A DNA stretch of 64,000 bases, taken from Silvibacterium bohemicum. Lineage in GTDB: Bacteria; Acidobacteriota; Terriglobia; Terriglobales; Acidobacteriaceae. This document shows, one piece after another, positions 18,001-36,073 of the stretch (positions are counted from its first letter, which is position 1; each line of letters opens with the position of its first letter). The notes beneath the pieces were generated by a model, which saw only the letters and a program-made list of their open reading frames with translations, ran no database searches and was not told the DNA's origin. The stretch is from positions 62,001 to 126,000 of the forward strand of contig NZ_LBHJ01000019.1 in NCBI RefSeq assembly GCF_001006305.1, read 5' to 3'. Made by a program: the position numbers and the translations under genes.

Positions 18001-19767
18001 ATGGAGATTGTCCGATTGACCTGCGGTCGTGAAACTCCAGTCGCGGCAAAGGAGAACCCCGGCATCGCGGCTCATCTGTGGAATGCGTGGTGCACTCGCC
18101 GGTTTCGAGACCTTCGTTGCGTGTGTGGCCTGTTTCTATTGTTGTCGATGGCCTCGGCATTTGAGACATGCCTGGCTCAGTCAGCCTCTCCGCAACAATC
18201 GATTGGCGCGACGATTCAGGGAACCATTGTCGAGGCGGATCACAAGGCGGTTGCTCACGCGCTGGTGCGGCTTGAATCTCAGGATGGGCATCGCGTGCTG
18301 CAGACTGTGACGGACTCTAACGGGGCCTATGTCATCTCTGCACTGCCTGCCGGCACGTATCGCATCACCTCGGAACTCAACGGGCTCCACAATCGCGTGA
18401 CTGATCCGCTGGTCATGGCAGCAGACGAGCATCGGCGCGTCGATCTTGTGCTCGAAGCTGCAAATACGCCAGGGGCAAAATCGAATCCGTCTTCTACAGC
18501 TGCGCCCCCTTCTCCATCCGCTGCCGATGCGATGCAGTTTGCCGATCTGCCCAACTTCACTGTCGCAGGAGTAACCGACTGGACTGCCGCGGGCGGACAC
18601 GGCTCCGACGCGCGATTGCGGACGAGCGAAGACCTCACGCGAGCGACAGTTGTGCTCAAACCGGCCGAGGCCAGTTCGGCGAAGTCGAAAGATGCCGCGA
18701 GCGAATCCGAGAGCAGTCTGCGCGCGGCTTTGGCAAAAGATCCACACAGCTTCGAGGCGAATCATCGGATGGGTGAGTTCTGTCTGCGCGAAAAAGATTT
18801 TCACGAGGCGATCCGCGCACTGCAGGCGGCTTACGAGATCGATCCGGCGAATGCGAGCAACGAGTACGACCTGGCTCTCGCTTACCAAGGCGCTGGGCAA
18901 CTGGCGCAGGCACGCGATCATGCTCAGCATTTACTGGCTCATGCGGAGAATGCCAATGCCCATCGGCTGCTGGGCGATCTGGACGAAGAGCTGGGTGAGC
19001 CGCTGCTTGCGGTCAATGAAGATGAGAGGGCGGTTCGTCTCGATCCCAGTGAAGAGAATTATTTTCAGTGGGGCACGGAGCTGTTGACTCATCGCGCGGT
19101 CAAGCCAGCGATCGAGGTTTTTGGAGATGGCGCAAAGGCTTATCCCAAATCGTCGCGCATGCTGGCGGCGCTGGGAGCCGCGCTGTTTGCCGGCGGACGC
19201 AATGACGAGGCCGCATCGCGCGTGTGCGAGGCGGCGGACTTGAATCCGGCCGATGCGGCTCCGTATATTTTTCTGGGCAAGATCGATCTCGCTGCGCCGA
19301 CAGCGATTGCATGCGTCGAGCCCAGGCTGGCGCATTATCTGGAGCAACAGCCGGAGAGCGCGCTTGCGAATTACTATTACGCGATGACGCTGTGGAAGGC
19401 GGAGCAGTCGTCAGAGAGCAAGGCGCAACTTCAGCGTGTCGAATTGCTGCTGACCAGGGCGGTTACCGCCGATCCCAAGTTTGAAGATGCGCTGCTACAG
19501 CTGGGCATCCTGTATTTCTCGCAGAGCAACTTCAAGCAAGCTGCGGATTGTTTTCAACGCGCGGTCTCTGCCGATCCGCAGTCGAGTGCTGCGCATTACC
19601 GGCTCGGCATGGCGTATGCGCGCATCGGTGAGCATGATCAGTCGCGAGCGGAATTTGCCCGTTATCGTGAGCTGGACCAGCAACAGGCGGCCGCGATTGA
19701 GCAGCAGCGGAAAGAGATCAAGCAGTTTCTAGTAGTGCTGAAGGACAAGCCGGCCACGGTGAACTGA
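18001..19767 (+). CDS. Exported TPR protein with N-terminal carboxypeptidase-regulatory-like domain
   Basis: 588 residues from ATG 18001, which has no clear Shine-Dalgarno; a GTG at 18121 is a possible later start. A hydrophobic segment at residues about 41-55 (CVCGLFLLLSMASAF) ends in CLAQ, a signal-peptide-like site. Residues about 70-155 form a carboxypeptidase-regulatory-like domain (IQGTIVEADHKAVAHALVRL ... AGTYRI). From about residue 240 at least seven tetratricopeptide repeats follow. The C-terminal two thirds is a paralogue of the TPR protein at 29694-31109 (ANYYYAMTLWK against AQYYYAMSLWK, both ending with AHYRLG-type repeats). It converges on the ASPIC/UnbV operon. A scaffold role at the envelope is inferred. 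Confidence 0.85.
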   Translation: MEIVRLTCGRETPVAAKENPGIAAHLWNAWCTRRFRDLRCVCGLFLLLSMASAFETCLAQSASPQQSIGATIQGTIVEADHKAVAHALVRLESQDGHRVLQTVTDSNGAYVISALPAGTYRITSELNGLHNRVTDPLVMAADEHRRVDLVLEAANTPGAKSNPSSTAAPPSPSAADAMQFADLPNFTVAGVTDWTAAGGHGSDARLRTSEDLTRATVVLKPAEASSAKSKDAASESESSLRAALAKDPHSFEANHRMGEFCLREKDFHEAIRALQAAYEIDPANASNEYDLALAYQGAGQLAQARDHAQHLLAHAENANAHRLLGDLDEELGEPLLAVNEDERAVRLDPSEENYFQWGTELLTHRAVKPAIEVFGDGAKAYPKSSRMLAALGAALFAGGRNDEAASRVCEAADLNPADAAPYIFLGKIDLAAPTAIACVEPRLAHYLEQQPESALANYYYAMTLWKAEQSSESKAQLQRVELLLTRAVTADPKFEDALLQLGILYFSQSNFKQAADCFQRAVSADPQSSAAHYRLGMAYARIGEHDQSRAEFARYRELDQQQAAAIEQQRKEIKQFLVVLKDKPATVN

Positions 19768-19791
19768 GGCAGGCTTTTGCGGATAGAATTT

Positions 19792-19860
19792 CTTTCGGCG
19801 GCTGAAGCCGCGTTTCTTGCACGCCAGTGATGGCATGGCTAAAGCCATGCCCTACCGAAA
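19792..19860. repeat. REP-type double palindrome in a convergent gap
   Basis: Two hairpins lie side by side: CGGCGGCTGAAGCCGC (about 19796-19812) and GGCATGGCTAAAGCCATGCC (19832-19851), enclosed by TTTCGG and CCGAAA. The same GGCTNAAGCC hairpin core is found three times at 57417-57530. It sits between two convergent genes, the usual place for REP sequences, and may help end transcription. Confidence 0.7.
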
Positions 19861-19892: not shown

Positions 19893-21656
19893 TCACTTGA
19901 TGACGCCTTCGCCTTCGCGAATGGTGAGGATCTGGTTTGCCTTCATCTTTTCGAAGCGCTCGATCTTCTGCGTGGTGGGCCACTTCACTTCGATGAGGTC
20001 TACGGTGTCGGCCTTGCCAAGGCCGAAGTGGAGGCGCAGGTCGCTCTGCGACATTACGCTGGTCCCGCTGTGCACCTCGTCCATCTGGATGTGCTTGCCG
20101 ACCATCACGCGGACACGTGCGCCGATGGCGGTGCGATTGCACTTGGTGCCGATGAGCTTAATCTTGATCCAGTTCTGTCGATTGCCTCCGTCATTGCGGA
20201 GCAGCGAGGGAGGGTCGTTGAGGTTCAGGATAACGGCATCTATGTCGCCATCGTTGTCGTAGTCGCCGAAGGCCGCGCCACGGCTGGAGAATCGTTCACT
20301 GACGCCAGGGCCCAGCTCTGCTGAGACGTCTTTGAAGCGCCCATTGCCTAGGTTTTTGTAGACGAGCCGCGGGTTTTTGAATGTCTGGCCGAAGTTGTAG
20401 TTATCGATCTCCGGATAAACATGCCCGTTCACCTGGATGATGTCGGCCCAGCCGTCGTTATCGTAGTCGACGAAGCCGCAGCCCCAGGCAACGTAGCGAT
20501 TGTTGACTCCGATGCCTGAATCGAAGGTGACATCGGTGAATGTGCCGTCACCGTTGTTGTGGTAGAGGTTGCAGGTGTCGTCGGAGAAGTTGGTCTTGAA
20601 GATATCGAAGAAGCCGTCGCAGTCGTAGTCGGCGACGGCTACGCCCATGCCGGCCTGCTCGTGTCCGTTGTCGCTGTAGGCGCAGCCGGCCATCACAGCG
20701 ACATCGGTAAACGTGCCGTCGTGATTGTTCTTGAACAGGATGCTTGGCTCGGAGTCTACGGCGATGTAGATATCGGGCCAGCCGTCGTTGTCGAAGTCAT
20801 AGGAGACAGCAGTGATCGAATAGCGCGGGCCGGGCTTCAGTATGCCGGATTTCTCCGAAACATCGGTGAAGGTGCCATCACCGTTGTTGCGGTAGAGGAT
20901 GTTGGTGTCGCCAGGCAGTCCGCGCGGGCCGCACATGCTCGGCACGCCCTTCCATTGGCAATAGGTTGTCTTATCGGCTGGAAGAATTTTCTCCGGATCG
21001 AGCTTGAGGTAATTGCAGACGAAGAGATCGAGATGGCCATCGCGATCGTAATCAAGAAAGGTACAACCCGTGCCCCAGCGATAGATGTTCTGCGCAAGGC
21101 CGGCCTTCTGCGTCACGTCAGTAAATGTGCCATCGCCATTGTTGCGGAAGAGGATGTTGTGTCCCCAGAAGCAGCAGAAGAGATCATCCCAACCATCGTT
21201 GTTGTAGTCGCCGACGCAGACGCCGGTCTGCCAGCCGGTGCGTCCGATGCCGGATTTTTCCGTGACATCGGTAAAGGTGCCATCGCGATTATTTTTATAC
21301 AGGTGGGACGTGGGAGCCTGGCCCGGAGCCCATTGCGCGTCGAGCCTGTTGCCGTTGGTGAGATAGATATCGAGCCAGCCGTCGTGATCGTAGTCGAAGA
21401 AGGCCAGCCCGCTGCCCTTGGCTTCGATGATGGAGCGCTTGTGATCGATGCCGCCCCACACGTTGAGCGCGGTGAGACCGGAGTGCTGCGCGACGTCGAC
21501 AAGTTGGACTGGAGATGTTTCGACATGGGGAGACGTCGCGGTTTGAAGGAGCGACGGATCGCGCCACTTCCACAGCGGCGTCGCGAGCGCTTCAGTCAGC
21601 GTGCCGCTGAGCGCGATGATTCCGGAGCCGAGGAAACGGCGGCGGGGAAGATTCAT
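19893..21656 (-). CDS. CRTAC1-family protein (FG-GAP/VCBS repeats and ASPIC/UnbV domain), Tat-exported
   Basis: 587 residues. ATG 21656 overlaps the stop of the upstream gene (ATGA). The N-terminus MNLPRRRFLGSGIIALSGTL is a Tat-type signal. At least seven FG-GAP repeats with calcium-loop motifs follow: FFDYDHDGWLDIYLTNG, VGDYNNDGWDDLF, FLDYDRDGHLDLFVCNY, SYDFDNDGWPDIYIAVD, VADYDCDGFFDIFKTNF, FVDYDNDGWADIIQVNG and FGDYDNDGDIDAVILN. The C-terminus is an ASPIC/UnbV domain (AIGARVRVMVGKHIQMDEV). It folds as a beta-propeller, probably at the cell surface. It is the second gene of the operon that starts at 25498 and is divergent from a TonB receptor. Specific ligand unknown. Confidence 0.92.
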   Translation of the reverse strand: MNLPRRRFLGSGIIALSGTLTEALATPLWKWRDPSLLQTATSPHVETSPVQLVDVAQHSGLTALNVWGGIDHKRSIIEAKGSGLAFFDYDHDGWLDIYLTNGNRLDAQWAPGQAPTSHLYKNNRDGTFTDVTEKSGIGRTGWQTGVCVGDYNNDGWDDLFCCFWGHNILFRNNGDGTFTDVTQKAGLAQNIYRWGTGCTFLDYDRDGHLDLFVCNYLKLDPEKILPADKTTYCQWKGVPSMCGPRGLPGDTNILYRNNGDGTFTDVSEKSGILKPGPRYSITAVSYDFDNDGWPDIYIAVDSEPSILFKNNHDGTFTDVAVMAGCAYSDNGHEQAGMGVAVADYDCDGFFDIFKTNFSDDTCNLYHNNGDGTFTDVTFDSGIGVNNRYVAWGCGFVDYDNDGWADIIQVNGHVYPEIDNYNFGQTFKNPRLVYKNLGNGRFKDVSAELGPGVSERFSSRGAAFGDYDNDGDIDAVILNLNDPPSLLRNDGGNRQNWIKIKLIGTKCNRTAIGARVRVMVGKHIQMDEVHSGTSVMSQSDLRLHFGLGKADTVDLIEVKWPTTQKIERFEKMKANQILTIREGEGVIK

Positions 21657-24600
21657 CGCAGTGCTTCCATAGCTTGCAGTGCGCCGCGATTCTGCGGCTG
21701 CAGGCGGAGCAGCTCCTGCACCATGGCGATTGCGCTTTCGCGGTCGCCGCGCATGGCGTAGAGACGCGCGAGATTGAGATAGGACTGATCGAAATTCGGA
21801 ACGAGCTGGATGCAGGTTTTGAATTGCGCTTCCGCTTCGGAGTAATTTTGCGCGCGCACGTAAAGGATGCCGAGATTGTTGCGCGCTTCGGGGTAGTCGG
21901 GGCGCAGCGCGATGGCCTTCTGGAGATAGTCAGAGGCTTGAGGTATCTGGCCTTGCTGCGCGTAGAGCATGCCCAGACCGTAGTCGATCTCCGGATCGTC
22001 AGGTTGGATTGCAAGAGCGCGCGTGAGCAGGTCCTGCGCCTTGTCGAATGCGCCCTGGCGGCGATAGAGATTTCCCAGGTTCACGAGCGCGATGGCATAG
22101 GATGGCCTCTGCTGCAGCGATCGCTGAAAGTTCTGCATCGCATCGTCCGCGCGGCCCTGCTGCGCGGCGATCATGCCGAGGTTGTTCCAGGCCTCAGGAT
22201 AGTCAGCGCGCAAGGCTACTGTACGTTCGAGATATTTCTTCGCCTGGTCGAGATCGTTTCTGCGCAGATAGAGAGTGCCGAGGTTATAGCAGGCTTCGGG
22301 ATCATCCGGCTTGGCGGCGAGCACCTGCTGGAAAGATGCTGTGGCCTGATCGAGATATCCGTGCTGGAGCAGAGCGATGCCGTAGGTGAAATCGTTGCGC
22401 TGCAACGCGCTCTGATAGAGCACTCCTCCGAAGGGCAGCGCCTTCGCGAGGCGGTCTTTCGGATTGGTGGGTATGGTTCGCATATCGTCGAGCACGCGCG
22501 CGGGGTCCACCGGCCCCTGATAGATCTTGACGATCATGACTTCGCGGTCAAGTAGAAACGTGCATGGGATGGGCAGGTCTTTGCGGCGATCGAAGAGAAA
22601 CCGAAAGATGATGTTGTAGATGCCGGCGACTTCTTCGGTCGCGAAGAGAACCGGGAAAGAAAAATGGTCTGGTGAGACGGCGGCCTGTGCGGCGTGAAGA
22701 TCGGAGGGGTCGTCAACATTGAGGGCGAGGACTTCGCAATGGCTCGCTGTCAGCGCGGCATGCTGCTGCTGGAATATTCGGAGCTGATCGCTGCTCTGAG
22801 GTGATTTCGTCGACCAGAAATTGAGCAACAGGAAGCTGCCCTGCAGCGATTGCAAGCTGCGCATGTTGCCGGTGAGGTCGGGCAGCGAAAATTCCGGAGC
22901 CTTCAACGGCTCGAGCAGCCATGTTTCCACCTGCGAGGGCAGGGATTCTGGGGCTGTCGAGGGTGCCGTTCCAATAGATATGACCGGCGGCGGTGCGAAG
23001 GGCGTAGCGTTGAATGTCGACGCGCCTTCTTCGATCTCGATGCGATGGTTTGGGGGAAGATTTTCGAACTGCTGCGTCAGCCCGCTGGGCCAGTGGACGG
23101 TGGCGCGAACATTTCCATCGTAACTCCCGATGCCCACGTGAACTTCCTTCGTATGCTGCGCGAGAAATCCCGATCCGGCCTGCAGATATCTTGTCTGGCG
23201 CAGGCCGCCCGCTTCTACTGTGACCGCTGCACCGATGGCGTCGCGATTGCTCTTCGTGCCGCGCAGGCGAAAGGCAATCGACTTGCCGATGTCCTGCATA
23301 CTGTTGTGCAGGATCCGCAATTGCGGGGCGTTGCGATTTTTCAGGATGACTTCAAGCCGGCCATCGTGATCGAGATCGGCCAGCGCAAACGAACGGCTGT
23401 CCTCGGGGAAGTCGAGTCCGGCGGTTCCCGAGACTTCGGAGAAGGTTCCGTCGCGGTTATTCGCGAACATTACGTTGCGCTCATAGCCGCTCCATGACGC
23501 GTCGGAGCGGATCAGCTCATTCAATGCGTTCCAGCCGTGCTCGTAGGCTTGCGACGGGGTGGTGTCGTCGGGCGATTTGGCCACGACCTGACGCCAGAAG
23601 AAGCTGCCCAGGTCAATCTGATTTTTGGGGCCGGAGATGTATCCGTTGGCCACATAGAGATCGGGATAGCCGTCGTGATCGAAATCCCAGAAGTCGGAGC
23701 ACCACGACCATCGGCCCATTTCGATGCCAATCCGGGCGCTCTCATTCTGGAAATTGCCGTCCCCTTGATTGCGGTAAAGCGAATTGCCGCGGGCATGGCG
23801 GCGATAGAGGGCGCGGATATCTTCCGGCGCTTTCTCATGAAAATTCTTCTGCTGCGAAACCCTCTGCCCGGCTGCTGACCACATGTTGGCGGCGTAGATG
23901 TCCGGCTTGCCGTCGTTGTCGATGTCGCTCCACGCGGCGCTCATGCCGGCTCCGGCATCCTGGACGTGAGCTGCTTCGGAAATGGCGGCGAAGGTGCCAT
24001 CACCGTTATTGCGGTAGAAGTTGCTGCGGCCGAAATCGTTGGCCACGTAGAGATCGGGAAGACCGTTGCTTTGATAGTCCCCCCAGGCGCAGGCAAAGCT
24101 GTAACGGTCGTTTTCGGCATTCAAGCCGACGGCTTCGGTGTGGTCTTCGAAGGTCCCATCGCCCTGGTTGCGCATCAGGTAATTCGGCGGACCGTTGCGG
24201 GCGTCGAAGTAGGGCACGGGATAGTGATACTGGTCGAGGCCGAGATAGTAACTGTAAAGGCAGAAGTAGATATCGAGGCGGCCATCGCGGTCATAGTCGG
24301 CGATCGCCGCATGAGTGAAGGTTCCCTGCGGCTGCTGCTTAAACTTGAAGGCATCGCGCTTGAGCGAGAAAGTTCCGTTGCCCTGATTGAGAAACAGGAG
24401 TGGACCGCTGCCGCAGACGACCAGGAGATCCTGTACGCCTTTGTTTCCGAAGTCGGCGAAGAGGGCGCAGGCAGTATTGTCGAGAACGCCGACTCCCGAT
24501 TTCTCTGTGACATCCTCGAAGGTGCCGTCGCCGCGATTGCGGTAGAGACGATTCGGTAATCCCGCTGGCTGGCAGACGTAAAGATCATCGAAGCCATCGT

Positions 24601-25498
24601 TATCGAAGTCGCCAACAGAGACGCCGTTGTTCCCGTAAACGTCGATCCCACAGGCGCCGTCGAGCACGGTGCGCCAGTAGTCGGTTCCGTGAAGCAGCTG
24701 GGTTGAGTAGGATTCAGCCGCCGTCATTGCGTGCCCCGTCACATCGACGAAGGCAGGGCCACGGATTTCGCTTACTGTCTCCTCGCGGGCCTCCCACTTG
24801 CGAACCTTCCACTCCTTCGAATCGTTCTGCAGCCATTCGGTCAGCCAGGCGCCCACCCGCTCTTCGCGGCGGTCGGATTCCAGCTCCGCGACGATGTCGT
24901 AGCGAATGTCCAGACGGAGGGTGAGGGGCGTCTCTGCAATCTCCTCGATGGCGGTGATCTCGAACTCCGCCGTCCGCACCTTGGCAGTCCCCCCGAGCCA
25001 GCTGCGGATTTCGTGAAGCACGCGCTCGCGGCCCGGGATGAGCTGCTTCTTCGACTCAAACTGCCTCTTGCGTATCTCAAGCCCGCTGCCGCTCCTCAGC
25101 TTGTGTTCCTGAGTTGGCGTGAGCGGGGAGATTTCACAGGCGGGGTCGAGAAACGCTGCCAGCGCTGAGAGATCATTCGCGCCCGACTGCAAGGCTTGAC
25201 TCCATCGTTGGAGGAGCAGGCCAATTTCGTACGCATATTTTTCAGTTACGAACTCATCGCTGCCCGGAGCAACGAGGCTGAATAGATTTTCGACCGGCGA
25301 CTGGGCGGGATAATGCGGTGTAAAGCGGACGTCCGCAAAGGGGAGCACGCCATTCGCGGCAGAAGGAAACTCGGACAGGCCGGACCAAGGGGAGCAGCCG
25401 AGGAAGGGAGCTGCACGAAAGAAAAACGGCGCAGCTGCAAAGCCTTTCAGGATCGATCGCCGGGAAAACGGCTTTCCTTCGTTATGGTGATGCGACAT
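21653..25498 (-). CDS. Tat-exported fusion: NTF2-like + FG-GAP/ASPIC-UnbV + cysteine-less thioredoxin fold + TPR
   Basis: 1281 residues from ATG 25498, chosen because it gives a clean Tat signal (FSRRSILKGFAAAPFFF); the frame is open 58 codons further up. Approximate order: residues 60-260 an NTF2/SnoaL-like region; 280-800 FG-GAP repeats (VGDFDNDGFDDLYVCQ, IADYDRDGRLDIYF, WSDIDNDGKPDIYAAN, FWDFDHDGYPDLYVANG); 800-870 ASPIC/UnbV; 920-1060 a TlpA/AhpC-like thioredoxin fold in which the WCxxC position reads WSTKSPQS, so it has no redox cysteines; 1080-1281 about seven TPRs. The usual CRTAC1 protein is 500-700 residues, so this is more than double. First gene of a two-gene operon, divergent from the TonB receptor at 25803. 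Likely a surface binding or assembly factor (inference). Confidence 0.88.
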   Translation of the reverse strand: MSHHHNEGKPFSRRSILKGFAAAPFFFRAAPFLGCSPWSGLSEFPSAANGVLPFADVRFTPHYPAQSPVENLFSLVAPGSDEFVTEKYAYEIGLLLQRWSQALQSGANDLSALAAFLDPACEISPLTPTQEHKLRSGSGLEIRKRQFESKKQLIPGRERVLHEIRSWLGGTAKVRTAEFEITAIEEIAETPLTLRLDIRYDIVAELESDRREERVGAWLTEWLQNDSKEWKVRKWEAREETVSEIRGPAFVDVTGHAMTAAESYSTQLLHGTDYWRTVLDGACGIDVYGNNGVSVGDFDNDGFDDLYVCQPAGLPNRLYRNRGDGTFEDVTEKSGVGVLDNTACALFADFGNKGVQDLLVVCGSGPLLFLNQGNGTFSLKRDAFKFKQQPQGTFTHAAIADYDRDGRLDIYFCLYSYYLGLDQYHYPVPYFDARNGPPNYLMRNQGDGTFEDHTEAVGLNAENDRYSFACAWGDYQSNGLPDLYVANDFGRSNFYRNNGDGTFAAISEAAHVQDAGAGMSAAWSDIDNDGKPDIYAANMWSAAGQRVSQQKNFHEKAPEDIRALYRRHARGNSLYRNQGDGNFQNESARIGIEMGRWSWCSDFWDFDHDGYPDLYVANGYISGPKNQIDLGSFFWRQVVAKSPDDTTPSQAYEHGWNALNELIRSDASWSGYERNVMFANNRDGTFSEVSGTAGLDFPEDSRSFALADLDHDGRLEVILKNRNAPQLRILHNSMQDIGKSIAFRLRGTKSNRDAIGAAVTVEAGGLRQTRYLQAGSGFLAQHTKEVHVGIGSYDGNVRATVHWPSGLTQQFENLPPNHRIEIEEGASTFNATPFAPPPVISIGTAPSTAPESLPSQVETWLLEPLKAPEFSLPDLTGNMRSLQSLQGSFLLLNFWSTKSPQSSDQLRIFQQQHAALTASHCEVLALNVDDPSDLHAAQAAVSPDHFSFPVLFATEEVAGIYNIIFRFLFDRRKDLPIPCTFLLDREVMIVKIYQGPVDPARVLDDMRTIPTNPKDRLAKALPFGGVLYQSALQRNDFTYGIALLQHGYLDQATASFQQVLAAKPDDPEACYNLGTLYLRRNDLDQAKKYLERTVALRADYPEAWNNLGMIAAQQGRADDAMQNFQRSLQQRPSYAIALVNLGNLYRRQGAFDKAQDLLTRALAIQPDDPEIDYGLGMLYAQQGQIPQASDYLQKAIALRPDYPEARNNLGILYVRAQNYSEAEAQFKTCIQLVPNFDQSYLNLARLYAMRGDRESAIAMVQELLRLQPQNRGALQAMEALR

Positions 25499-25802: not shown

Positions 25803-28800
25803 ATGGGTCCTCACGAAAATGCAAAAACGATGAAGGCCGGGTATCTCCTACGGAGTCTCGGCTACGCAGCACTCTGCTGCATCCTGGTATTCCTGGCCCA
25901 GAACCGGTATGCCTTCGCTCAAGTGGATGAAGGATCGATCGCTGGAATTGTCCAAGATCCGACAGGCGCAGTCATCCCGGGTGCGCATGTGACGCTGCTC
26001 AACACTGACCAAGGCTTATCCCTGGAGACAACGGCCAACGCGAACGGCGAATATACCTTCTCGCCGGTCCGCATCGGGCACTACATGATCACGGTGACCT
26101 CGCCGGGATTCTCAACCACCACCCAGAAGAATCTGCAGGTGAACGTATCGCAGAATCTGCAAGTAAACATTCAGCTGAAGCCGGGCGCAGCAACGCAGAC
26201 CGTGGAAGTAACCACGGCTCCCGCGGAATTGCAGACGGAAGACGCTTCACTCGGGCAAACGGTCACCGAGCATAGCGTGAACAGCCTGCCGCTGAACGGC
26301 CGCAACTTTACCTTTCTGGCCCAGCTCGGGGCCGGCGTCAACTCGCCCCAGGCCGATACGCGCGGTAATGCCGCTTCCGGCGCATTTACTGCCAATGGCC
26401 TGCGTCCGGCGCAAAATAACTACCTGCTGGACGGAATCGACAACAACTCGAACGCCGTCGATTTTCTGAACGGCACTAACTTCGTCATTCTTCCGCCGGT
26501 CGATGCGATCTCGGAGTTCAAGGTGCAGACGGGAGATTTCAGCGCTGAGCTGGGACGCTCCGCCGGAGCGGTTCTGAATGCCACGATCAAATCGGGTACG
26601 AACAGCATCCACGGCGCGGCGTGGGAGTTCTTCCGCAACGACAAGCTCGATGCTGCCGACTGGTTCGAAGACAACGCTGGCATCAAGAAGGGCGAACTTC
26701 GGCAGAACCAGTTCGGTGGAGCGATCGGCGGTCCGATCATCAAGGACAAAGCCTTCTTCTTCGGCGACTACGAAGGTCTGCGGCGCGTGCAAGGAACAGT
26801 GCTTCCCGGCACGGTGCCGACTCTTACGGAACGCAACAGCGGTTTCACTAACCTCTCCGATCTGATCACCGGACAGAACGGCGCGCCGCGCATCGACTCC
26901 CTGGGCCGATCGATTCCTTATGGCACCATTCTCGATCCGGCTACGACTCGCGCGGTAACTGCAGGCACGGTCGATCCCGTGTCAGGATTAACGGCAACCC
27001 AAAGCGGCTTTGTTCGTGACCCATTCGGAACCTGCGGAGCGGGCACGACGACCTTCACGCTTGGCACCTGCAACCTGAACCAACTGCCCGCGGGCCGTAT
27101 TGATGCGAACGCAGTCAAACTGCTCAACCTCTACCCGACACCGACGAACGGCTCGTTCAGCACGAACTTTACATCGAGCCCTGCCCTCTACGAGCATCGC
27201 AATGCCTTCGATACTCGCGTGGACTTCAACCCCTCGCAGAAAGAGCAGATCTTCTTCCGCTTCAGCTACGTGGACGATCCGCAGTTCATCCCCGGCATCT
27301 TCGGGGGCGTAGCTGACGGCGGCGGCTTCCAGCAAGGTCTGCAGACTGCCAAATCGGATCAGGCTGTTCTCGCCTGGACTCATGTGTTTTCGCCCAGCGT
27401 GGTGAACGTCGCACGCGTTGGATTCAACCACCTTCACACCACACGCTTCGGACCGGAAGGCTCGGTGACCGGCATCCCGGCGCAGTTTGGGATTCAGGGC
27501 GTTCAGCAGACCTCGGAAAATGGCGGCCTTCCCGCCATTGTTATTCAGGGCCTGCAGGAACTCGGCAGCAATGACTACCTCCCTTCGGATGAAGTCAGCC
27601 AGACATTGCAGGTGGCTGACGACTTCACGAAGATTTACGGAAAGCACAGCTTTAAAGCTGGCCTCGAATATCAGACTGTCGATTTCAATACTCTGCAGCC
27701 CGCTTACGCGCGCGGTGAGTTTGATTTCAACGGGAACTTTGCGGGCGTTCCGGGACAGAGCGGAGATCAGACCGGCCGCGCACAGCTTCTGCTAACTCCC
27801 ATCGCAGCAACCGTCCCCGGAGGCGTTAACTTCGTGGGCGGCGCCAATGAAGTCCACGCCTCGAACATCAGCAAAACATATGACCAGAGAAGCTATCTGG
27901 CTTTCTACTTCCAGGATGACTGGAAGGTCACCCCGCGGCTGACCCTCAACCTGGGCATGCGCTGGGATTATTTCAGCCCGATCTCTGAGACGAACGGCGG
28001 ACAGGCTAACTTCGTTCAAACCGGACCGCCGGCGGGAGGGCCGATCTACCTGATTCCGGCATCGGGTAAGGACAACCGGCAACTCTCATCGACGGCCAAC
28101 AATCCAGCCCTGAACGGCCAAGGCTTCCTCGACCTGCTGGCCAAGGACAAGATTGCTTTGGGAGAGACCAGCAAATACGGAAATGCGCTGGTCCAGACGC
28201 AGCAGCACAACTTCGCACCACGCTTCGGCTTCGCCTTTGAAGTGACGCCCAAGCTTGTGGCACGCGGCGGTGCAGGCCTCTTCTTCAACGCATTCGAAAA
28301 CCAGGGATACGGACCGAACATCGGAGAGAACTATCCCTTCGTCTACAACTTCGACTTCAAGGGAACGACGGATTCCGCACCCTTCAGCTCCGGCCCCAAT
28401 CCTTACGGGAGCTGCGCAACGGCAGCGCCCTACGGAGGAGCCGCACCGATTGGCGTAGGCCTGAGCTGCGCGGCATTCACGCCTCTGGCGGTGAACGCTG
28501 CGGGCCTCAGCCTGCAGGGACTCCAGTTCGATTACGTAACCCCGCGTACTTTCAGCACGAACCTGACCCTGCAATACGCACTCACACACAGCTTGTCTGC
28601 GCAGGTGGCCTACGTGCTTACCGACGCCAGCTCCCTGCAGATCGGTATTGGCAACAACGAAGTCTCTCAGCTGCTGCCGGCCAACATCAGCACGACACCC
28701 TATGTGCCGTTCCCCGACTTTTCACAGGGAGCAAGTTACCAGCGGTCAGCGGGAAGCAGCGTCTACAACGGCCTGCAGACCAAGCTCGAACAGCAGCTGT

Positions 28801-29591
28801 CGAACGGATTGAACTATCTCGTCACCTACACCTATTCAAAAACGCTCTCCGACGCGGGTGACTTGCTCAACGGAGGCAGTACGAATGGATATCGGGCTCC
28901 ATGGCTACCGGGCTACGGTCCACGATTCGACTGGGGCCTGGCCGATTTCGATGTTCGGAATGTCTTCCATCTCAGCGGCGGATACGAGTTGCCCTTCGGC
29001 AAGGGCAAGGCGTTCCTGGCTAACTCAGGAAGGCTTGCGGACGAGGTCGTAGGAGGTTGGAGCCTTAACACCATCGTCACTATCCAGGGGGGACAGCCCA
29101 TTTCACTCACCTGCCCCACCGCGACCACCTCGGGAACAAACTGCAACGACGTCGAAGTTCCCGGGCAAAGCCAGAAGCTGGGGCTGCATACCGATTCGAA
29201 TGGCAAGCTGAGCTGGTTTGGAAACCCCAACGCCTTCCAGCAGCCTTGCCCGTTGGGTGGGACGCCGACGGCAGGGTGCTTCCCATTAACCGGCCGGGGC
29301 ATCCTCGGCGGCGGACCCTCCACCACGTATGGACCGCCTCTCCGCCAATTCACGCTGTCCGCGTTCAAGGCGATTCCCATCAACGAGCGCTTCTCGATGC
29401 AGTTCCGAGCGGAGTTCTTCAACATCCTCAATCATCCGAACTTCAACGCACCTAACTTCGGCGGCAACGGAGTTACGTCGGTTGGAAACTCGGGCAACTT
29501 TACCAGCTCCACCTTCGGCGAGATTGGATCGACCCGCGATGCTCCCTACGATCCGAGACAGATCCAGTTCGCTCTGAAGTTGTTCTTCTAA
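25803..29591 (+). CDS. Oar-like TonB-dependent receptor with carboxypeptidase-regulatory-like domain
   Basis: 1262 residues from ATG 25803, with GGAGG eight bases upstream. The frame is open much earlier, but only this start gives a signal sequence: GYLLRSLGYAALCCILVFL ending in YAFAQ. Then comes a carboxypeptidase-regulatory-like domain (GIVQDPTGAVIPGAHVTLLN), a plug with NSLPLNGRNFTFLAQLGAGV and NGLRPAQNNYLLDGIDNNSN, and a long barrel whose last residues are QIQFALKLFF. Outer-membrane TonB-dependent transporter of the acidobacterial Oar group. It is divergent from two FG-GAP/ASPIC proteins and followed by a TPR protein, a phosphatase-like protein and a GH2 enzyme, which suggests uptake of an oligosaccharide or glycoconjugate (inference). 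A terminator follows, but the next gene starts only 100 bases on. Confidence 0.93.
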   Translation: MGPHENAKTMKAGYLLRSLGYAALCCILVFLAQNRYAFAQVDEGSIAGIVQDPTGAVIPGAHVTLLNTDQGLSLETTANANGEYTFSPVRIGHYMITVTSPGFSTTTQKNLQVNVSQNLQVNIQLKPGAATQTVEVTTAPAELQTEDASLGQTVTEHSVNSLPLNGRNFTFLAQLGAGVNSPQADTRGNAASGAFTANGLRPAQNNYLLDGIDNNSNAVDFLNGTNFVILPPVDAISEFKVQTGDFSAELGRSAGAVLNATIKSGTNSIHGAAWEFFRNDKLDAADWFEDNAGIKKGELRQNQFGGAIGGPIIKDKAFFFGDYEGLRRVQGTVLPGTVPTLTERNSGFTNLSDLITGQNGAPRIDSLGRSIPYGTILDPATTRAVTAGTVDPVSGLTATQSGFVRDPFGTCGAGTTTFTLGTCNLNQLPAGRIDANAVKLLNLYPTPTNGSFSTNFTSSPALYEHRNAFDTRVDFNPSQKEQIFFRFSYVDDPQFIPGIFGGVADGGGFQQGLQTAKSDQAVLAWTHVFSPSVVNVARVGFNHLHTTRFGPEGSVTGIPAQFGIQGVQQTSENGGLPAIVIQGLQELGSNDYLPSDEVSQTLQVADDFTKIYGKHSFKAGLEYQTVDFNTLQPAYARGEFDFNGNFAGVPGQSGDQTGRAQLLLTPIAATVPGGVNFVGGANEVHASNISKTYDQRSYLAFYFQDDWKVTPRLTLNLGMRWDYFSPISETNGGQANFVQTGPPAGGPIYLIPASGKDNRQLSSTANNPALNGQGFLDLLAKDKIALGETSKYGNALVQTQQHNFAPRFGFAFEVTPKLVARGGAGLFFNAFENQGYGPNIGENYPFVYNFDFKGTTDSAPFSSGPNPYGSCATAAPYGGAAPIGVGLSCAAFTPLAVNAAGLSLQGLQFDYVTPRTFSTNLTLQYALTHSLSAQVAYVLTDASSLQIGIGNNEVSQLLPANISTTPYVPFPDFSQGASYQRSAGSSVYNGLQTKLEQQLSNGLNYLVTYTYSKTLSDAGDLLNGGSTNGYRAPWLPGYGPRFDWGLADFDVRNVFHLSGGYELPFGKGKAFLANSGRLADEVVGGWSLNTIVTIQGGQPISLTCPTATTSGTNCNDVEVPGQSQKLGLHTDSNGKLSWFGNPNAFQQPCPLGGTPTAGCFPLTGRGILGGGPSTTYGPPLRQFTLSAFKAIPINERFSMQFRAEFFNILNHPNFNAPNFGGNGVTSVGNSGNFTSSTFGEIGSTRDAPYDPRQIQFALKLFF

Positions 29592-29693: not shown

Positions 29694-31109
29694 TTGAGCA
29701 GAAGGCCTCAGTTCGGGCTGACAATTCTTTCCCTGCTGTTGCTCTCTGCTGATTTCAGCTTTGCCGCAGATGACCGGGAACAAAAACTCAATCGCGAATT
29801 CCAGTCGGCGGTCGCGCAATACAAGGCTGGCCAGTATCCCCAGGCAGCGGCGCAACTGGAAGAGCTGCTACCGCAGCTTCCGAAAAACTTTGAAGTCCAG
29901 GAACTGCTGGGGCTGGTGTATGCCTCAGAGTCGCAAAACAAGAAAGCGATCGAACATCTGCAAGCCGCGGTCGAGCTCAAACCCAATTCTCCCGAGGCCA
30001 GGACGAATCTTGCTGCGACCTTCTCGCACGCGGGACGCTTCGATTTAGCCGGAGAGCAATTCCGAAAGGCGCTGGAGCTGGAACCACATAACTACAATGC
30101 GAACCATAACCTCGGGGAGTTTTACATCCACGCCGGAAAGATTACGGATGCGCTGCCTCTTCTCGAAGAGGCGCAACGCGTGGATTCATCCTCCTACGAC
30201 AATGGCTATGATCTGTCGCTGGCCTACTTTCTCTCCGGGCGGCTGGATGCTGCGAGGCAGCTTATCGATACTCTGATCGCCCAGAAGAACTCTGGCGACC
30301 TGCACAACCTGCTCGGCGAAGTAGAAGAGAAGGATGGGAAGTTCCTAGCGGCGGCGAAAGAGTTCGAGATCGCCGCGCAGATGGAGCCCAGCGAGGAGAA
30401 TCTCTTTGACCTTGCGTGCGAATTTCTCCTGCACCGCACCTACGAGCCCGCGATCGACGTGTATAAGAAGGCGATCGAACGCTATCCTGACTCGGCGCGG
30501 CTCCGCATCGGGCTAGGGGTCACGCTGTATTCGCGCGGCCAGTACGATGAGGCGGTGAAGTCGCTGGTGGCCGCCGCCGATCTCACGCCACGCGATCCAC
30601 GCTGTTATCTCTTTCTCTCGAAGGCTTATGACAGCTCGCTGCAGCAGGCGGACGAGGTGATTCAGCGATTCCGCCGCTATGCTGAGCTTGAGCCGCGCAA
30701 TGGATTGGCGCAGTATTACTACGCGATGAGTTTATGGAAGGGCAAGCGAACGGGCGATTCGAATCTGGATATTCACCAGGTCGAGGAGCTGCTTCAGAAA
30801 TCGATCGCACTCGATCCCTCGCTGGCCGAGGCTCATGTACAGCTGGCAGATCTTTACGATGGGCAGCATGCTTATGACAAATCGATACCGCAATATGTCC
30901 GGGCGCTGGAGCTGAACCAGAATCTTCCCGATGCGCATTACCGGCTGGGGCAGGACTACATCCATACCGGCAGGAAAGACCAGGCGCAGGCGGAATTCAT
31001 CGTCTATCAGAAGCAGCGCGCCGAACACATGGCCGTGATCGATAAAGAGAAAGCAGACGTGCAGCAATTCGTGTATGCGGCCAAAACTGAGCCCGTAAGC
31101 AAACCATGA
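29694..31109 (+). CDS. Exported TPR protein
   Basis: 471 residues from TTG 29694, with GGAGGTGA just upstream; no nearby ATG is in frame. A signal peptide is seen at residues 1-24 (FGLTILSLLLLSADFSFAA). The rest is a chain of at least ten tetratricopeptide repeats, for example FRKALELEPHNYNANHNLGEFYI and YVRALELNQNLPDAHYRLG. It is a paralogue of the C-terminal part of the protein at 18001-19767, but lacks that protein's carboxypeptidase-regulatory-like domain. It lies after the TonB receptor and 51 bases before the Tat phosphatase-like gene, in the same direction. A periplasmic scaffold or partner role is inferred; no enzyme motif is present. Confidence 0.88.
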   Translation: MSRRPQFGLTILSLLLLSADFSFAADDREQKLNREFQSAVAQYKAGQYPQAAAQLEELLPQLPKNFEVQELLGLVYASESQNKKAIEHLQAAVELKPNSPEARTNLAATFSHAGRFDLAGEQFRKALELEPHNYNANHNLGEFYIHAGKITDALPLLEEAQRVDSSSYDNGYDLSLAYFLSGRLDAARQLIDTLIAQKNSGDLHNLLGEVEEKDGKFLAAAKEFEIAAQMEPSEENLFDLACEFLLHRTYEPAIDVYKKAIERYPDSARLRIGLGVTLYSRGQYDEAVKSLVAAADLTPRDPRCYLFLSKAYDSSLQQADEVIQRFRRYAELEPRNGLAQYYYAMSLWKGKRTGDSNLDIHQVEELLQKSIALDPSLAEAHVQLADLYDGQHAYDKSIPQYVRALELNQNLPDAHYRLGQDYIHTGRKDQAQAEFIVYQKQRAEHMAVIDKEKADVQQFVYAAKTEPVSKP

Positions 31110-31160: not shown

Positions 31161-32363
31161 TTGAATTTGAGCAATGTTTTTCCATCCCGTAGTTCCTCGT
31201 TCGCGGAGATGTTGTCGCGATGCTCGCCACGCGAAGTCTCGGGATATCTCGGACGCAGCCGGCGCGATTTCCTGCGCGGAGCGGCTGGATTAGCCGCGGG
31301 GTCAGCGCTGATGAGCGCTAGCCCGTTTGTGCATGGCCAGAAGGCGGCAAAGAAACGGAAAGTGATTGTGATCACCTTCGGAGGCGGCGCCCGGGATCAG
31401 GAAACATTTGCGCCGGAGGGACAGGAGAATATTCCGCACATGCTTCATGACCTGATCCCGCAGGCGAGCTTCTTTACGCAGGTGATGAACCAGGGCATCC
31501 TCGGCCACTACGTCGCAACAGCGAGCCTGGCGACCGGAGTCTACGAAACGCTGAATAATTTTTCCGCAGTTCCTCCCGAACATCCGACCGTCTTCGAATA
31601 CTTCCGCAAAGATCTGCGCCGCCCAGCGTCGGACGCGTGGGTGGTCGCTCCCAGCAACGGTTTCAATCGCATTGGCGATAGCGGAAACCGCTCCTATGGC
31701 CCGGACCTGGGAGCGCGCGTGGTTCTGCCGAAGCATCTGCTGCGCGCCGCTATCTCGGGATCGACGGACTACGAACATCTGCTGCGCGACAACTATGAGA
31801 CGCCGCTCTATACGCCTCCGATTGCAGGCGGCGAGTTTGAGCTGCAGCAACTGGAGAGGATCCTCAAGCTCTCGGTCGACGACTTCAAGGCTCATGCCCT
31901 GACCGCATCGAGTCCGGACGAGCTATCTGTATTTATTGCACGCCGCCTGATGCAGCAGGAGTCTCCAAGCCTGTTGTGGATCACCATGCACGATATCGAT
32001 ATTGCGCACTCCGGCGCGTATTCGCTCTACGTCGATGCAATCCAGCGCACCGACCGACTATGCGCGGAACTGTGGCAGGCGGCGCAGAGCGACCCGGAAT
32101 ATGCAGGCAACACGACGCTCTTCATCCTGCCGGATTTCGGCCGGGATGCGGATGAAGACTCCGGCGGCAACGGATTTCAGCATCATCGAACGGGTGACGC
32201 AGCTTCGCGCACCACCTGGATGATCGCCATGGGAGCTGGAGTTCGCGAGGGAGTCATCTATGACCGACCCGTGCAATCAATCGATCTGGTGCCGAGCCTG
32301 GGCGCGATGATGGGATTCTCCCCGGCGCTTTCCCAGGGCACGCCCATCAAGGAGCTGCTCTAA
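31161..32363 (+). CDS. Tat-exported alkaline phosphatase/sulfatase-superfamily protein
   Basis: 400 residues from TTG 31161 (GAAGGTGA upstream); ATG 31209 is an alternative that keeps the signal. The Tat signal is GRSRRDFLRGAAGLAAGSAL. The remainder has the layout of the alkaline phosphatase/sulfatase superfamily: strand plus metal-loop region VIVITFGGGARDQETF, then GHYVATASLATG at the place of the nucleophile, MHDIDIAHSGAYSLYVDAI, LPDFGRDADED and GFQHHRTGD, and a C-terminal VQSIDLVPSLGAMMG. These carry the Asp and His residues expected for metal binding. The substrate is unknown and the nucleophile is not certain. The next gene starts four bases after its stop, so the two are translated together. 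Confidence 0.8.
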   Translation: MNLSNVFPSRSSSFAEMLSRCSPREVSGYLGRSRRDFLRGAAGLAAGSALMSASPFVHGQKAAKKRKVIVITFGGGARDQETFAPEGQENIPHMLHDLIPQASFFTQVMNQGILGHYVATASLATGVYETLNNFSAVPPEHPTVFEYFRKDLRRPASDAWVVAPSNGFNRIGDSGNRSYGPDLGARVVLPKHLLRAAISGSTDYEHLLRDNYETPLYTPPIAGGEFELQQLERILKLSVDDFKAHALTASSPDELSVFIARRLMQQESPSLLWITMHDIDIAHSGAYSLYVDAIQRTDRLCAELWQAAQSDPEYAGNTTLFILPDFGRDADEDSGGNGFQHHRTGDAASRTTWMIAMGAGVREGVIYDRPVQSIDLVPSLGAMMGFSPALSQGTPIKELL

Positions 32364-32367: not shown

Positions 32368-33576
32368 ATGCTGCCCAGCGATCTCAAAGCCGAACAATTC
32401 TCGGGATATCCTCCCGAGGCGAGGGCGCTGGTAGTTGCGCATCTCGAAGTTCTACGGCAGTTGCCGCTCAGCTTCATGCCCAGCCTGTTGCGCGAGATCA
32501 TCGACTACGATTATCGATTTCCGGCGGAGCGTAAGACGATTGATAGCGAGCTGGCGGAGCTCTCCTCTCTGTCGCCGGCGCAAAGGCGCGAATGGTTTCA
32601 ACCCTTCTCCGACTTATCGCTCTCTCCGAAACTCGAGCGAGTGGATTGGGTCAATCAGCCGGCGCAATTTACAGAGCAGCTCTCTGCATACCTGTGGAGC
32701 ACGCATCAGATGGATGCGTTCCGCAAGGCTGCGACAGAGTATGGGAACCGCTTGCAGCCGGTAATGCCTACCGATTCCCTTTCCATGCCGAGATTGGGCA
32801 TCGCGATCATAGGACAAGGCGTGACGGCATACGATGCGCCGCTGTTCCGCAATTTGCGCAAGCATGGGACTTACTTCACAAAGGTGAAGCCGGATAACGG
32901 ACTGGAAAAACTGCTGGCAGGCATCGCGGCGCGGGCGGAAGCGCATCCTGCGCCTTACGGCCATTGGTACATCGATGGAGGACAAGAGGCCAATCACAGC
33001 GCGCTGCTGACATGCACTTCATATCACGGCCTGGAACCGATGCGCGCAGCACTGCTGAAAAACATCCAGACGGAAATCGCAAAGCCCGGCATGGGGCCGG
33101 AGGAGCTGCGCACCCACCTCGCACAGCTCGCAATATCGGATATCGGGGTGAAAGGATCCGGCGACGTCGTGCTCGATCGCTTTCAAATGAAGCTGTTCAC
33201 AGAAGGCTCGGGAACACAGATCTTCAGCACCACCTTCGCGCAGTGGACAACCCGCGAGGTCCTGCGGCGTGCCCAGGCGCTTACCATGCTGGTGCGCTTT
33301 GCTCCGCGGCAACGGCAGAAGCCGATGAACGAGCTACTCGCCAATGGAGACAGCAACCCTGAGCTCGACACTGTCGGCTCGCTGGTCGACGCGGACATGG
33401 GCAGCTACTATCACTGGCTCAACCAGCAGCGCCTGCCGGGATGGAATCAATCTTCGTTTCTTGTGTGGTTTGAGGGACACGATAAAGCCGTAGCCATTGG
33501 ACCATCGCTGCCTCGCAACACGGAGTCGAGCTCGGCAGTCGATCTCGCGGAGCTTCTGAGGTTAGCCACCACATGA
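32368..33576 (+). CDS. Uncharacterised protein coupled to the phosphatase-like gene
   Basis: 402 residues from ATG 32368, four bases behind the stop of the previous gene. I do not recognise a domain. There is no signal peptide or membrane segment, so it is presumably cytosolic. Visible features: an N-terminal helical part (residues 1-120) and a conserved-looking middle with LGIAIIGQGVTAYDAPLFRNLRKHGTYF, YGHWYIDGGQEAN, SDIGVKGSGDVVLDRFQMKLFTEGSGTQIFSTTFAQW and SLVDADMGSYYHWLNQQRLPGW. The dense His/Trp/Tyr/Asp clusters suggest an active or binding site. Base and codon use match the neighbours, so it is a real gene. Tight coupling to an exported phosphatase-like protein hints at a shared task, but no function is claimed. 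Confidence 0.85.
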   Translation: MLPSDLKAEQFSGYPPEARALVVAHLEVLRQLPLSFMPSLLREIIDYDYRFPAERKTIDSELAELSSLSPAQRREWFQPFSDLSLSPKLERVDWVNQPAQFTEQLSAYLWSTHQMDAFRKAATEYGNRLQPVMPTDSLSMPRLGIAIIGQGVTAYDAPLFRNLRKHGTYFTKVKPDNGLEKLLAGIAARAEAHPAPYGHWYIDGGQEANHSALLTCTSYHGLEPMRAALLKNIQTEIAKPGMGPEELRTHLAQLAISDIGVKGSGDVVLDRFQMKLFTEGSGTQIFSTTFAQWTTREVLRRAQALTMLVRFAPRQRQKPMNELLANGDSNPELDTVGSLVDADMGSYYHWLNQQRLPGWNQSSFLVWFEGHDKAVAIGPSLPRNTESSSAVDLAELLRLATT

Positions 33577-33676: not shown

Positions 33677-36073
33677 ATGGATCGACGCATTTTTCTCAAG
33701 ACTACTGGTACGTTGTTAGCCTCAGCCGCACTTCCGCATGCTTCGGCGCTGGGCGAAGAGCCTTTGGCAAAAGGCCGCACGATTCTCCCCATGAACCGGA
33801 ATTGGCGATATCACCCGTCGAAGATCGACGGTGCCGAAGCGATTGCCTTCGACGATTCAACGTTCGAGAAGGTTGTGGTTCCACACACGAATATCAAGCT
33901 TCCCTGGCATAACTTCGACGACAAAGATTACGAATTCGTCTCAACCTACCGGCGGCGTTTCAAGCTTCCCGCATCGGCAGCGGGCAAGCGGGTCTTCGTG
34001 GACTTTGAAGGCGTGATGACCGCGTCAACGGTATGGATCAACGGTGTTCCGCTCGGCGAATATAAGGGAGGATTCACGCCATTTTCGTTTGAGCTGACAC
34101 CCCATCTTCGCTCCCAGGAAGAAAACGTTCTTGTGGTTCAGGTCGATTCGACAGAAAGAGCGGACATCCCGCCCTTCGGCTACGAGGTCGACTACATGAC
34201 CTTCGGCGGCATCTATCGCGAGGTCTCGCTTCGCGCCGTCCCTCACACGTACATCGACAATATTCACGCCCGCCCCAAGGATGTGATGAGCGGCAGTCCC
34301 TCGATCGATGTCGATTGCTTTCTCGCCGGAGATCTTACTGCGAGCAAACTCTCGCTCGAAGTCGAATTACGCGATGGAGACCAGGTCATCGCTAAAGGTA
34401 CTCATGCGCTTCCGCGCAAACCTTCCGCGGCTACAGCTGATACAACTATCGACCCTGTAACTCCGGCGCCGGCGTACGCCAGCATCGAAACGACCGACGA
34501 CCCGGCGCGCTCGACCATCACTCTAACCGGACTGGGCAGCGTAAAACTTTGGGATCTTTCCAGTCCACAGCTCTACACCGTTCATGTTCGTTTGCTACAG
34601 TCCGGAGAGGCGATTGACGAAGATCAACGCCGCGTTGGCTTTCGTGAAGCAACGTTCACCGATCACGGATTCTCTCTCAATGGAAAGATCATCAAGCTTC
34701 GCGGACTGGATCGCCACCAGACCTTCCCGTTCGTTGGGCAGGCGATGCCTGCCCGCGCGCAGCGGCAGGATGCGAAGATTCTGCGGCACAACCTGCACTG
34801 CAACATCGTTCGCACCTCGCACTATCCCCAGTCACGGCACTTCCTCGATTGCTGTGACGAGATCGGCCTGCTGGTGCTGGAGGAGATCCCCGGCTGGCAG
34901 CATATCGGCAACGAGGCGTGGCAGCTTGTGGCAATCGACAACGTGGGGCGCATGATTCGCCGCGACTGGAATCATCCCTCCATTATTCTGTGGGGCGTGC
35001 GCATTAACGAGTCGAAGGACAATCACAACTTTTATGTGCGCACCAACGCACTCGCACACGCTCTCGATCAGACGCGCCAGACAGGCGGCATTCGCTACTT
35101 TCAGGAGTCGGAGTTCCTCGAAGATGTGTTTACGATGAACGATTTCGGCTTTCCGCTCAAGAAGCCCAATCACCCTCGCTACCTGAATACCGAATTTGTC
35201 GGCCACACATTTCCAACGAAGACAACCGATGACGACGAACGCCAGCGCGAGCACACTCTACGGCACGCGCGCATTCACAACCAGCTTGCTTCCGATCCGC
35301 AATACGCGGGAGGCATCGGCTGGTGCGCGTTCGACTACAACACGCATGCGAACTTCGGCTCCGGCGACCGCATCTGCTACCACGGCGTCACGGATATCTT
35401 TCGCGAGCCGAAGGCTGCTGCAGGTTTTTACAAATCGCAGTGCGATCCCGAAGAGGAGATCGTTTTGGAGCCGGCCTTTCACTGGGCGCGCGGCGATGAG
35501 TCAGTAGGTTTTTCGAAGGCCGTGATCTGTTCGAACTGCGATCACCTCAAGGTTTTCACACGCTCCGGCAGCATCGAAAGCAATCCGTGGGTGGCTCTGG
35601 CCGAGCTCGATCCCGACCGCACCGAATTTGAGCACCTGAAGTATCCTCCCTTTGTTCTTGACGTAAGCAAATACCGGGATGGCTGGGGCGACCTGCGCAT
35701 CGACGGCTATCTCAATGGGAAACAGGTCATCTCGAAGTCGCTCTCTGGCCGTGGCGTCGATACCAAATTCGCGCTGCTGCCTGACGATCTTACGCTCATG
35801 GCCGACGGCGCAGACACGACGCGAGTTGTTCTGCGCGTGACCGACGAGTTCGGCGCGATGCGAACCTATGCCAACGATGCGGTGAGCTTCACGTTGGAAG
35901 GGCCGGCCGAGTTGATCGGCGACAATCCGTTTTCTCTGATCGGAGGAACCGGAGCTGTCTGGGTTCGCGCCAAGGAGGTAGCGGGAACTGTAACTCTCAA
36001 AGCGACACATCCGCGATTGGGTTCGCAGACGGTGAGCTTTACTTTCACGAGTGTTCCCGAAGAGACGGTGTAG
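33677..36073 (+). CDS. Glycoside hydrolase family 2 protein (beta-galactosidase-like), Tat-exported
   Basis: 798 residues from ATG 33677. The N-terminus MDRRIFLKTTGTLLASAAL is a Tat-type signal. Then the GH2 order follows: a jelly-roll sugar-binding domain (about 40-200, NRNWRYHP, WINGVPLGEYKGGFTPF, YREVSLRAV), an immunoglobulin-like sandwich (about 200-330), and the TIM barrel. The acid/base is Glu445 in WGVRINESKDN and the nucleophile probably Glu506 in YLNTEFVGHTF. A further beta domain near the C-terminus (TLMADGADTTRVVLRVTDEFG) matches the GH2 C-terminal Ig-like domain. It should hydrolyse beta-galactosides or similar sugars in the periplasm. Position behind the TonB receptor, TPR and phosphatase-like genes makes it a probable part of that utilisation set. 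Confidence 0.9.
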   Translation: MDRRIFLKTTGTLLASAALPHASALGEEPLAKGRTILPMNRNWRYHPSKIDGAEAIAFDDSTFEKVVVPHTNIKLPWHNFDDKDYEFVSTYRRRFKLPASAAGKRVFVDFEGVMTASTVWINGVPLGEYKGGFTPFSFELTPHLRSQEENVLVVQVDSTERADIPPFGYEVDYMTFGGIYREVSLRAVPHTYIDNIHARPKDVMSGSPSIDVDCFLAGDLTASKLSLEVELRDGDQVIAKGTHALPRKPSAATADTTIDPVTPAPAYASIETTDDPARSTITLTGLGSVKLWDLSSPQLYTVHVRLLQSGEAIDEDQRRVGFREATFTDHGFSLNGKIIKLRGLDRHQTFPFVGQAMPARAQRQDAKILRHNLHCNIVRTSHYPQSRHFLDCCDEIGLLVLEEIPGWQHIGNEAWQLVAIDNVGRMIRRDWNHPSIILWGVRINESKDNHNFYVRTNALAHALDQTRQTGGIRYFQESEFLEDVFTMNDFGFPLKKPNHPRYLNTEFVGHTFPTKTTDDDERQREHTLRHARIHNQLASDPQYAGGIGWCAFDYNTHANFGSGDRICYHGVTDIFREPKAAAGFYKSQCDPEEEIVLEPAFHWARGDESVGFSKAVICSNCDHLKVFTRSGSIESNPWVALAELDPDRTEFEHLKYPPFVLDVSKYRDGWGDLRIDGYLNGKQVISKSLSGRGVDTKFALLPDDLTLMADGADTTRVVLRVTDEFGAMRTYANDAVSFTLEGPAELIGDNPFSLIGGTGAVWVRAKEVAGTVTLKATHPRLGSQTVSFTFTSVPEETV

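Follow-up and report, generated by a model that had tools for sequence, protein, structure and literature searches.

The eight genes considered here lie in a 64,000-base stretch of the Silvibacterium bohemicum genome (G000:C11:62001-126000, hereafter the window; the genome comprises 6.46 Mb in 25 contigs), where they form a cassette around OAR, an Oar-type TonB-dependent receptor. OAR (25803..29591, plus strand) carries a CarboxypepD_reg plug extension and matches PF25183 with E=5e-208. It is followed on the same strand by TPR2 (29694..31109), an exported tetratricopeptide repeat (TPR) protein directly behind OAR, recognised by Pfam and synteny; by PHOS (31161..32363), exported by twin-arginine translocation (Tat) and related, through weak Pfam and PDB profile matches, to the AlkP superfamily and DUF1501; by U402 (32368..33576), a 402-aa orphan with no recognised export signal; and by GH2 (33677..36073), a Tat-exported, beta-galactosidase-like glycoside hydrolase of family 2 according to Pfam. 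The minus strand carries FUS (21653..25498), a Tat-exported protein of 1281 aa in which Pfam distinguishes an N-terminal domain, FG-GAP_3, ASPIC, an AhpC-TSA thioredoxin-like domain and TPRs, and FGGAP2 (19893..21656), a Tat-exported CRTAC1-like beta-propeller with FG-GAP_3 and UnbV_ASPIC matches. TPR1 (18001..19767, plus strand), an exported TPR protein with an N-terminal CarboxypepD_reg domain in Pfam, is convergent to FGGAP2 and lies behind its end; its orthologues stand left of FGGAP2 in many cassettes. The 3′ end of FUS (21653) overlaps the start of FGGAP2 by 4 bases, and the gaps on the OAR strand are short (PHOS-U402 4 bases, U402-GH2 100 bases). Because of this spacing, two divergent operons are likely to leave the 304-base region between FUS and OAR. 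The original prediction had listed these eight genes with their domains and positions, the 304-base distance between the FUS and OAR starts and a paralogous relation of TPR1 to TPR2, all of which were confirmed (TPR1 and TPR2 are 34% identical over 395 aa, E=3e-73).

The same prediction had treated the genes as one system, in which homologues of the receptor and of the FG-GAP fusion should not usually be far apart. Synteny was compared in 200 genomes drawn from the class, using the full-length FUS copies of at least 56% identity (n=25). OAR was divergently adjacent to 22 of these copies, and the remaining three lay within about 2.4 kb of a contig edge on the OAR side, as expected of a single system. 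The adjoining receptors were 57-77% identical to OAR, with 301-1663 bases between the matched segments; where the gap was longer, a LacI gene usually lay in between. Among the OAR paralogues reported from the S. bohemicum genome, the best is 44% identical. Full-length relatives of FUS were found in many genera and the OAR clade in a similar set of genomes: 41 genomes had both, nine FUS only, one OAR only and 149 neither (the Fisher value of 1e-32 is overstated, because the sampled genomes share kinship). FGGAP2 orthologues beside FUS were 76-85% identical. PHOS and U402 stay together behind OAR, and among 61 relatives the U402 homologues all had a PHOS homologue directly upstream. PHOS is largely confined to this class: in a phylum-wide sample of 199 genomes it occurred in 17, all but three of which belong to the class. 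More distant arrangements were also seen. In family f5 (L025, L050, L053) the same genes occur together in a different order, while in family f6 (L064, L119, L121, L122, L124) relatives of FG-GAP, PHOS and Oar, mostly joined by those of U402 and TPR, are clustered at about 23-49% identity. Within the S. bohemicum genome, 11 of 19 ASPIC domains have an Oar receptor no more than 10 kb away, against 20% expected. The arrangement is far from chance, because the cassette recurs across genera and families of the class, and we hold the conserved unit to be real with high confidence. Loci from other genera (L024, L036-L038, L040, L041, L044-L047) have an extra TPR protein of 820-890 aa between FGGAP2 and FUS, often together with a second CRTAC1-like protein; both extras are absent in the window.

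Immediately left of the cassette is a complete L-rhamnose cluster (window 7420-17932), with an FGGY kinase, an aldolase/SDR fusion, an IclR-type regulator with a periplasmic-binding domain, RhaI, LUD/LutB/CCG lactate-oxidation genes and RhaT. RhaT and TPR1 share a strand and are separated by 68 bases, and the eight genes might be mere neighbours with the rhamnose pathway as their functional context. The synteny comparison largely refutes this reading, which we regard as highly improbable: almost all relatives keep the cassette without rhamnose genes, and only G238 has RhaI within 13 kb. The cluster was accordingly rejected as a functional partner, being absent beside the cassettes of relatives except for that RhaI some 12 kb away, and its adjacency is probably incidental. 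A UxaE-like tagaturonate epimerase is encoded at window 49392-51272.

The most constant part of the cassette is OAR-TPR2-PHOS-U402. At L110 (G200), PHOS and U402 stand behind a receptor of 71-73% identity whose upstream 12 kb are free of FG-GAP genes, and the FUS-less cassettes L019, L020, L113 and L114 have receptors 37-39% identical to OAR. GH2 orthologues are present even at FUS-less L019 and L113. Because FUS-less cassettes exist, the FG-GAP proteins are, judged from gene content, a strongly linked but dispensable arm; because receptor-PHOS-U402 cassettes occur without FG-GAP, the arm cannot be a universal substitute for SusD.

FUS and OAR diverge from a shared promoter region (25499..25802), which was aligned with its counterparts from 12 other genomes. 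The alignment shows a conserved TTTTGRTTGACA, containing the −35-like element TTGACA (25666..25671, plus strand; also located by exact search), and a palindrome whose shape we take to be that of LacI/GalR-family operators. With at most one mismatch, GTAANCGNTTAC is present in 11 of the 13 intergenic regions against a shuffle mean of 0.14, a figure that is purely descriptive, because the motif was picked after the alignment had been seen. A partly independent check is given by the location of exact sites: 18 were found in 1.31 Mb made up of cassettes and their flanks, where 1.25 were expected at equal base frequencies, and 13 of the 18 lay at FUS/OAR. Of the others, one precedes galT by 121 bases in G017, and further ones stand ahead of a GH3 gene and of another Oar gene. 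In the G145 region (L077), an exact copy at stitched position 15787 precedes another Oar receptor gene by 130 bases, and this suggests that the motif marks a small regulon with several receptors. The putative LacI-family operator of the window is TGTAAGCGGTTGCA (25733..25746, plus strand), which motif comparison places one mismatch from TGTAANCGNTTACA. With up to two mismatches allowed, the window contains no other match; this one is not significant alone, and such sites are at background in the S. bohemicum genome (7, against 8 for a reversed-pattern control). A generic sigma-70 scan of the region found no promoter. LacI genes occur inside or beside the cassettes of relatives, and the FUS/OAR promoter is probably under LacI control.

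The flanks of the cassette in different genera carry GH2 orthologues (56-76% identity, mostly 65-76%), GH36, GH42, GalK, GalT and GalM. At least one galactose gene lay within 10 kb at 20 of 56 PHOS-bearing loci, compared with 1 of 20 Oar loci elsewhere in the S. bohemicum genome (p=0.008, two-sided), in counts that were made by hand over flanks of unequal length, from phylogenetically non-independent loci and with a control from one genome. The GH2 of the window matches NCBIfam GalA at 263 bits, below the cut-off of that family, and its residues E445 (in RINES) and E506 (in NTEF), presumably the catalytic ones, are conserved in 15 of 15 orthologues. Sugar uptake is the likely function of the cassette; because galactose genes recur at its flanks, galactosides are the best guess at the substrate class, a prediction in which we place slightly more belief than doubt. 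Alternatively, the cassette could serve a substrate other than galactose, be it a different sugar, a glycan bearing substituents or a compound that is no carbohydrate, and the galactose genes could have come to lie beside it by accident in certain lineages. Ligands of many kinds are imported by TonB receptors of this type, the fetched DNA of many cassettes contains no galactose gene, and GH29 or rhamnose genes are found near some. The LacI-type operator with its regulators and the recurrence of galactose enzymes in different genera speak against this alternative, which we consider possible but clearly the less probable of the two.

The FG-GAP arm was examined for its domains and its location. 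In both FGGAP2 and FUS, FG-GAP repeats are followed by an ASPIC domain, each above its Pfam cut-off. The FGGAP2 profile matches the human CRTAC1 structure 9etn (E=7e-43) and, more weakly, integrin propellers. A CxxC active site is absent from the thioredoxin-like domain of the window FUS and of the aligned orthologues, and many orthologues retain a single Cys in that domain. Since beta-propeller lyases exist and the cassette has a sugar-type context, the FG-GAP proteins might be polysaccharide-degrading enzymes that feed the receptor, but CRTAC1 and integrin propellers are what FGGAP2 matches, with no lyase among its PDB matches, and this role is very unlikely. About 4 kb outside the left edge of the window, a convergent CRTAC1-like pair (L027:7867-11732, G000:C11) is 36-39% identical to FGGAP2.

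Export signals were judged by simple pattern tests, not by a trained predictor. A Tat-type motif was present in 38/42 FUS, 23/28 FGGAP2, 46/54 PHOS and 14/15 GH2 sequences and, by the same test, in 0/50 of U402, while the N-termini of TPR1 and TPR2 were mostly hydrophobic and of the general secretory (Sec) type. A lipobox-like Cys was seen in 1/42 FUS, the sole case being that of the window, and in 0/28 FGGAP2. Because Tat signals are combined with essentially no lipobox, the FG-GAP proteins would by default be periplasmic unless a further export step exists, and surface display is not indicated by sequence. The proposal that they are surface binding partners of the receptor thus finds no support so far, given also the cassettes that lack the arm, and it is one option among several. 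That they form a glycan-capturing arm at all is a tentative suggestion. A somewhat weaker candidate is that FG-GAP/ASPIC, TPR and PHOS/U402 proteins are a periplasmic apparatus that matures or stabilises the receptor and binds no substrate. The near absence of a lipobox among the Tat-exported proteins fits a periplasmic rather than a surface site, the CxxC-less thioredoxin-like domain and the TPRs resemble a protein-interaction scaffold, and many of the other Oar receptors encoded in the S. bohemicum genome lack an FG-GAP neighbour. The tight tie of these genes to one receptor clade argues instead for a substrate-specific role over general maturation, and we rate the maturation apparatus as unlikely, although well above the enzyme role.

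The original description of PHOS as phosphatase/sulfatase-like holds at the level of profiles, where Pfam and PDB searches gave weak matches to DUF1501 (15.8 bits, below the family cut-off of 27), to the Metalloenzyme superfamily and to a sulfatase structure; it found no support beyond that level. Residues D278, H283, D329 and H342 of PHOS are invariant. A structure predicted from a five-sequence alignment was of low confidence (predicted local distance difference test (pLDDT) 44, predicted template modelling score (pTM) 0.52), and a fold search with this low-confidence model gave no significant match, the weak top matches including YejM, iPGM and phosphonoacetate hydrolase. Sequence comparison places PHOS on the fringe of both the AlkP superfamily and DUF1501. 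U402 belongs to no Pfam or NCBIfam family, its PDB and Pfam profile searches stayed at chance level, and its predicted structure (five-sequence alignment, pLDDT 41) was unusable. At L068:8226-13365 two PHOS-U402 pairs face each other, with 82/70% and 37/24% identity to the pair of the window, which suggests an old duplication of the pair. A DUF1800 protein with a TIG domain is encoded at window 51597-55880 and is followed on the same strand by a DUF1501 protein (DUF1501 match 54594-55823). A combined reading, in which the FG-GAP/ASPIC propellers, one of them fused to a CxxC-less thioredoxin-like domain and a TPR module, would be a SusD-independent glycan-capture arm for one Oar clade and PHOS-U402 a new enzyme pair processing a substituent of the imported glycan, is in our judgement rather doubtful.

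No genome of the 200 from the class, S. bohemicum included, contained a match to PF07980, the SusD model searched, and a Bacteroides control was positive; for this model, the statement that Acidobacteriota lack SusD is borne out. Gene content, synteny, co-occurrence, the absence of SusD, the operator motif and the galactose-gene enrichment together point to a conserved, probably LacI-controlled, SusD-less outer-membrane uptake unit of Acidobacteriota, most likely for galactose-containing oligo- or polysaccharides, as a variant of TonB-dependent glycan utilisation. We favour this interpretation by a modest degree. The prediction of a polysaccharide-utilisation-like, SusD-less uptake system is thereby supported by the single unit, by the missing SusD and by the LacI-type control and galactoside enzymes that go with the unit, whereas a surface location of the FG-GAP proteins, or their binding to the receptor or a glycan, is not supported.

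For the direction of transport, the substrate and the roles of the FG-GAP, PHOS, U402 and TPR proteins, the following scheme is proposed. Without inducer, a LacI-family repressor would hold the shared FUS/OAR promoter through the conserved operator. After induction, OAR, by analogy with its family, would use energy supplied through TonB to bring a glycan fragment through the outer membrane, and the Tat- or Sec-exported partners would act beyond the inner membrane. There GH2, or GH36 or GH42 in relatives, may release galactose, and an ester substituent may be removed or handled by PHOS. The TPR/thioredoxin-like tail of FUS, together with TPR1 and TPR2, could scaffold the FG-GAP/ASPIC propellers against the receptor, and the propellers could hold the glycan or the receptor complex. 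Galactose would then pass to the cytosol and into the Leloir pathway, for which galK and galT stand beside the cassette in some relatives.

Several points weigh against this interpretation. The case is built on genes and their comparison, the activity of GH2 is assigned at family level, and the galactose enrichment carries the dependence among loci and the one-genome control given above. In roughly two thirds of the cassettes, the fetched DNA contains no gene recognised as a galactose gene. Relatives also carry GH29 or other enzymes nearby, so that the substrate may differ among lineages. The operator site of the window has its one mismatch and lies closer to OAR than in other genomes, and the window shows no LacI gene next to the cassette. 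Some cassettes lack the FG-GAP arm (L110, L019, L020, L113, L114), and some FUS paralogues are located apart from this OAR clade (L032, L039, L048).

Acidobacteriota are abundant in soil, and how substrates are chosen and taken up with about 65 Oar-type TonB receptors, the number in the S. bohemicum genome, and no SusD is the question that the cassette addresses. Another of these receptors, 27% identical to OAR, lies at window 699-6829 and is followed by a convergent MacB/FtsX-type permease. The cassette is a well-delimited conserved unit for which a common operator and a particular candidate substrate class can be named; its natural variants with and without the FG-GAP arm let the role of the arm be separated from that of the receptor, and it brings two protein families without a firm Pfam assignment, the distantly placed PHOS and the orphan U402. 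In the literature covered, which excluded subscription journals, no description of this cassette was found; new here are the LacI-type operator in the shared FUS/OAR promoter and the recurrent galactose genes nearby.

Individual proteins of the cassette resemble known families. FGGAP2 is like the CRTAC1 / ASPIC-UnbV FG-GAP family in its 9etn match and its ASPIC domain, whereas FUS adds an N-terminal domain, the CxxC-less thioredoxin-like domain and TPRs and is tied to a TonB receptor. PHOS is linked to the DUF1501 / alkaline phosphatase superfamily by weak matches to DUF1501 and Metalloenzyme and by a resemblance of C-terminal motifs, but it falls below the Pfam cut-offs, forms a distinct family and is paired with U402.

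As a whole, the cassette is like the SusCD loci of Bacteroidota in its TonB receptor with a carboxypeptidase-regulatory-like N-terminal extension (OAR, with CarboxypepD_reg and plug matches, is broadly SusC-like), in its linked exported glycoside hydrolases (GH2 in the window; GH36, GH42 or GH29 in relatives) and in its putative sugar-type regulatory site. It differs in having FG-GAP/ASPIC, TPR proteins, PHOS and U402 in place of SusD, and in its LacI-type operator, where SusCD loci are regulated by SusR/hybrid two-component or extracytoplasmic function (ECF) sigma systems. In its proposed working it is like the SusD-independent carbohydrate utilisation loci with TonB-dependent transporters (CUT loci) of Proteobacteria, which have LacI/GalR regulators, and shares with them a SusD-less TonB receptor, a LacI-type operator and glycosidases. 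Unlike those loci, it has an Oar-type receptor and, in addition, the FG-GAP/ASPIC fusion, the TPR pair and the PHOS-U402 pair.

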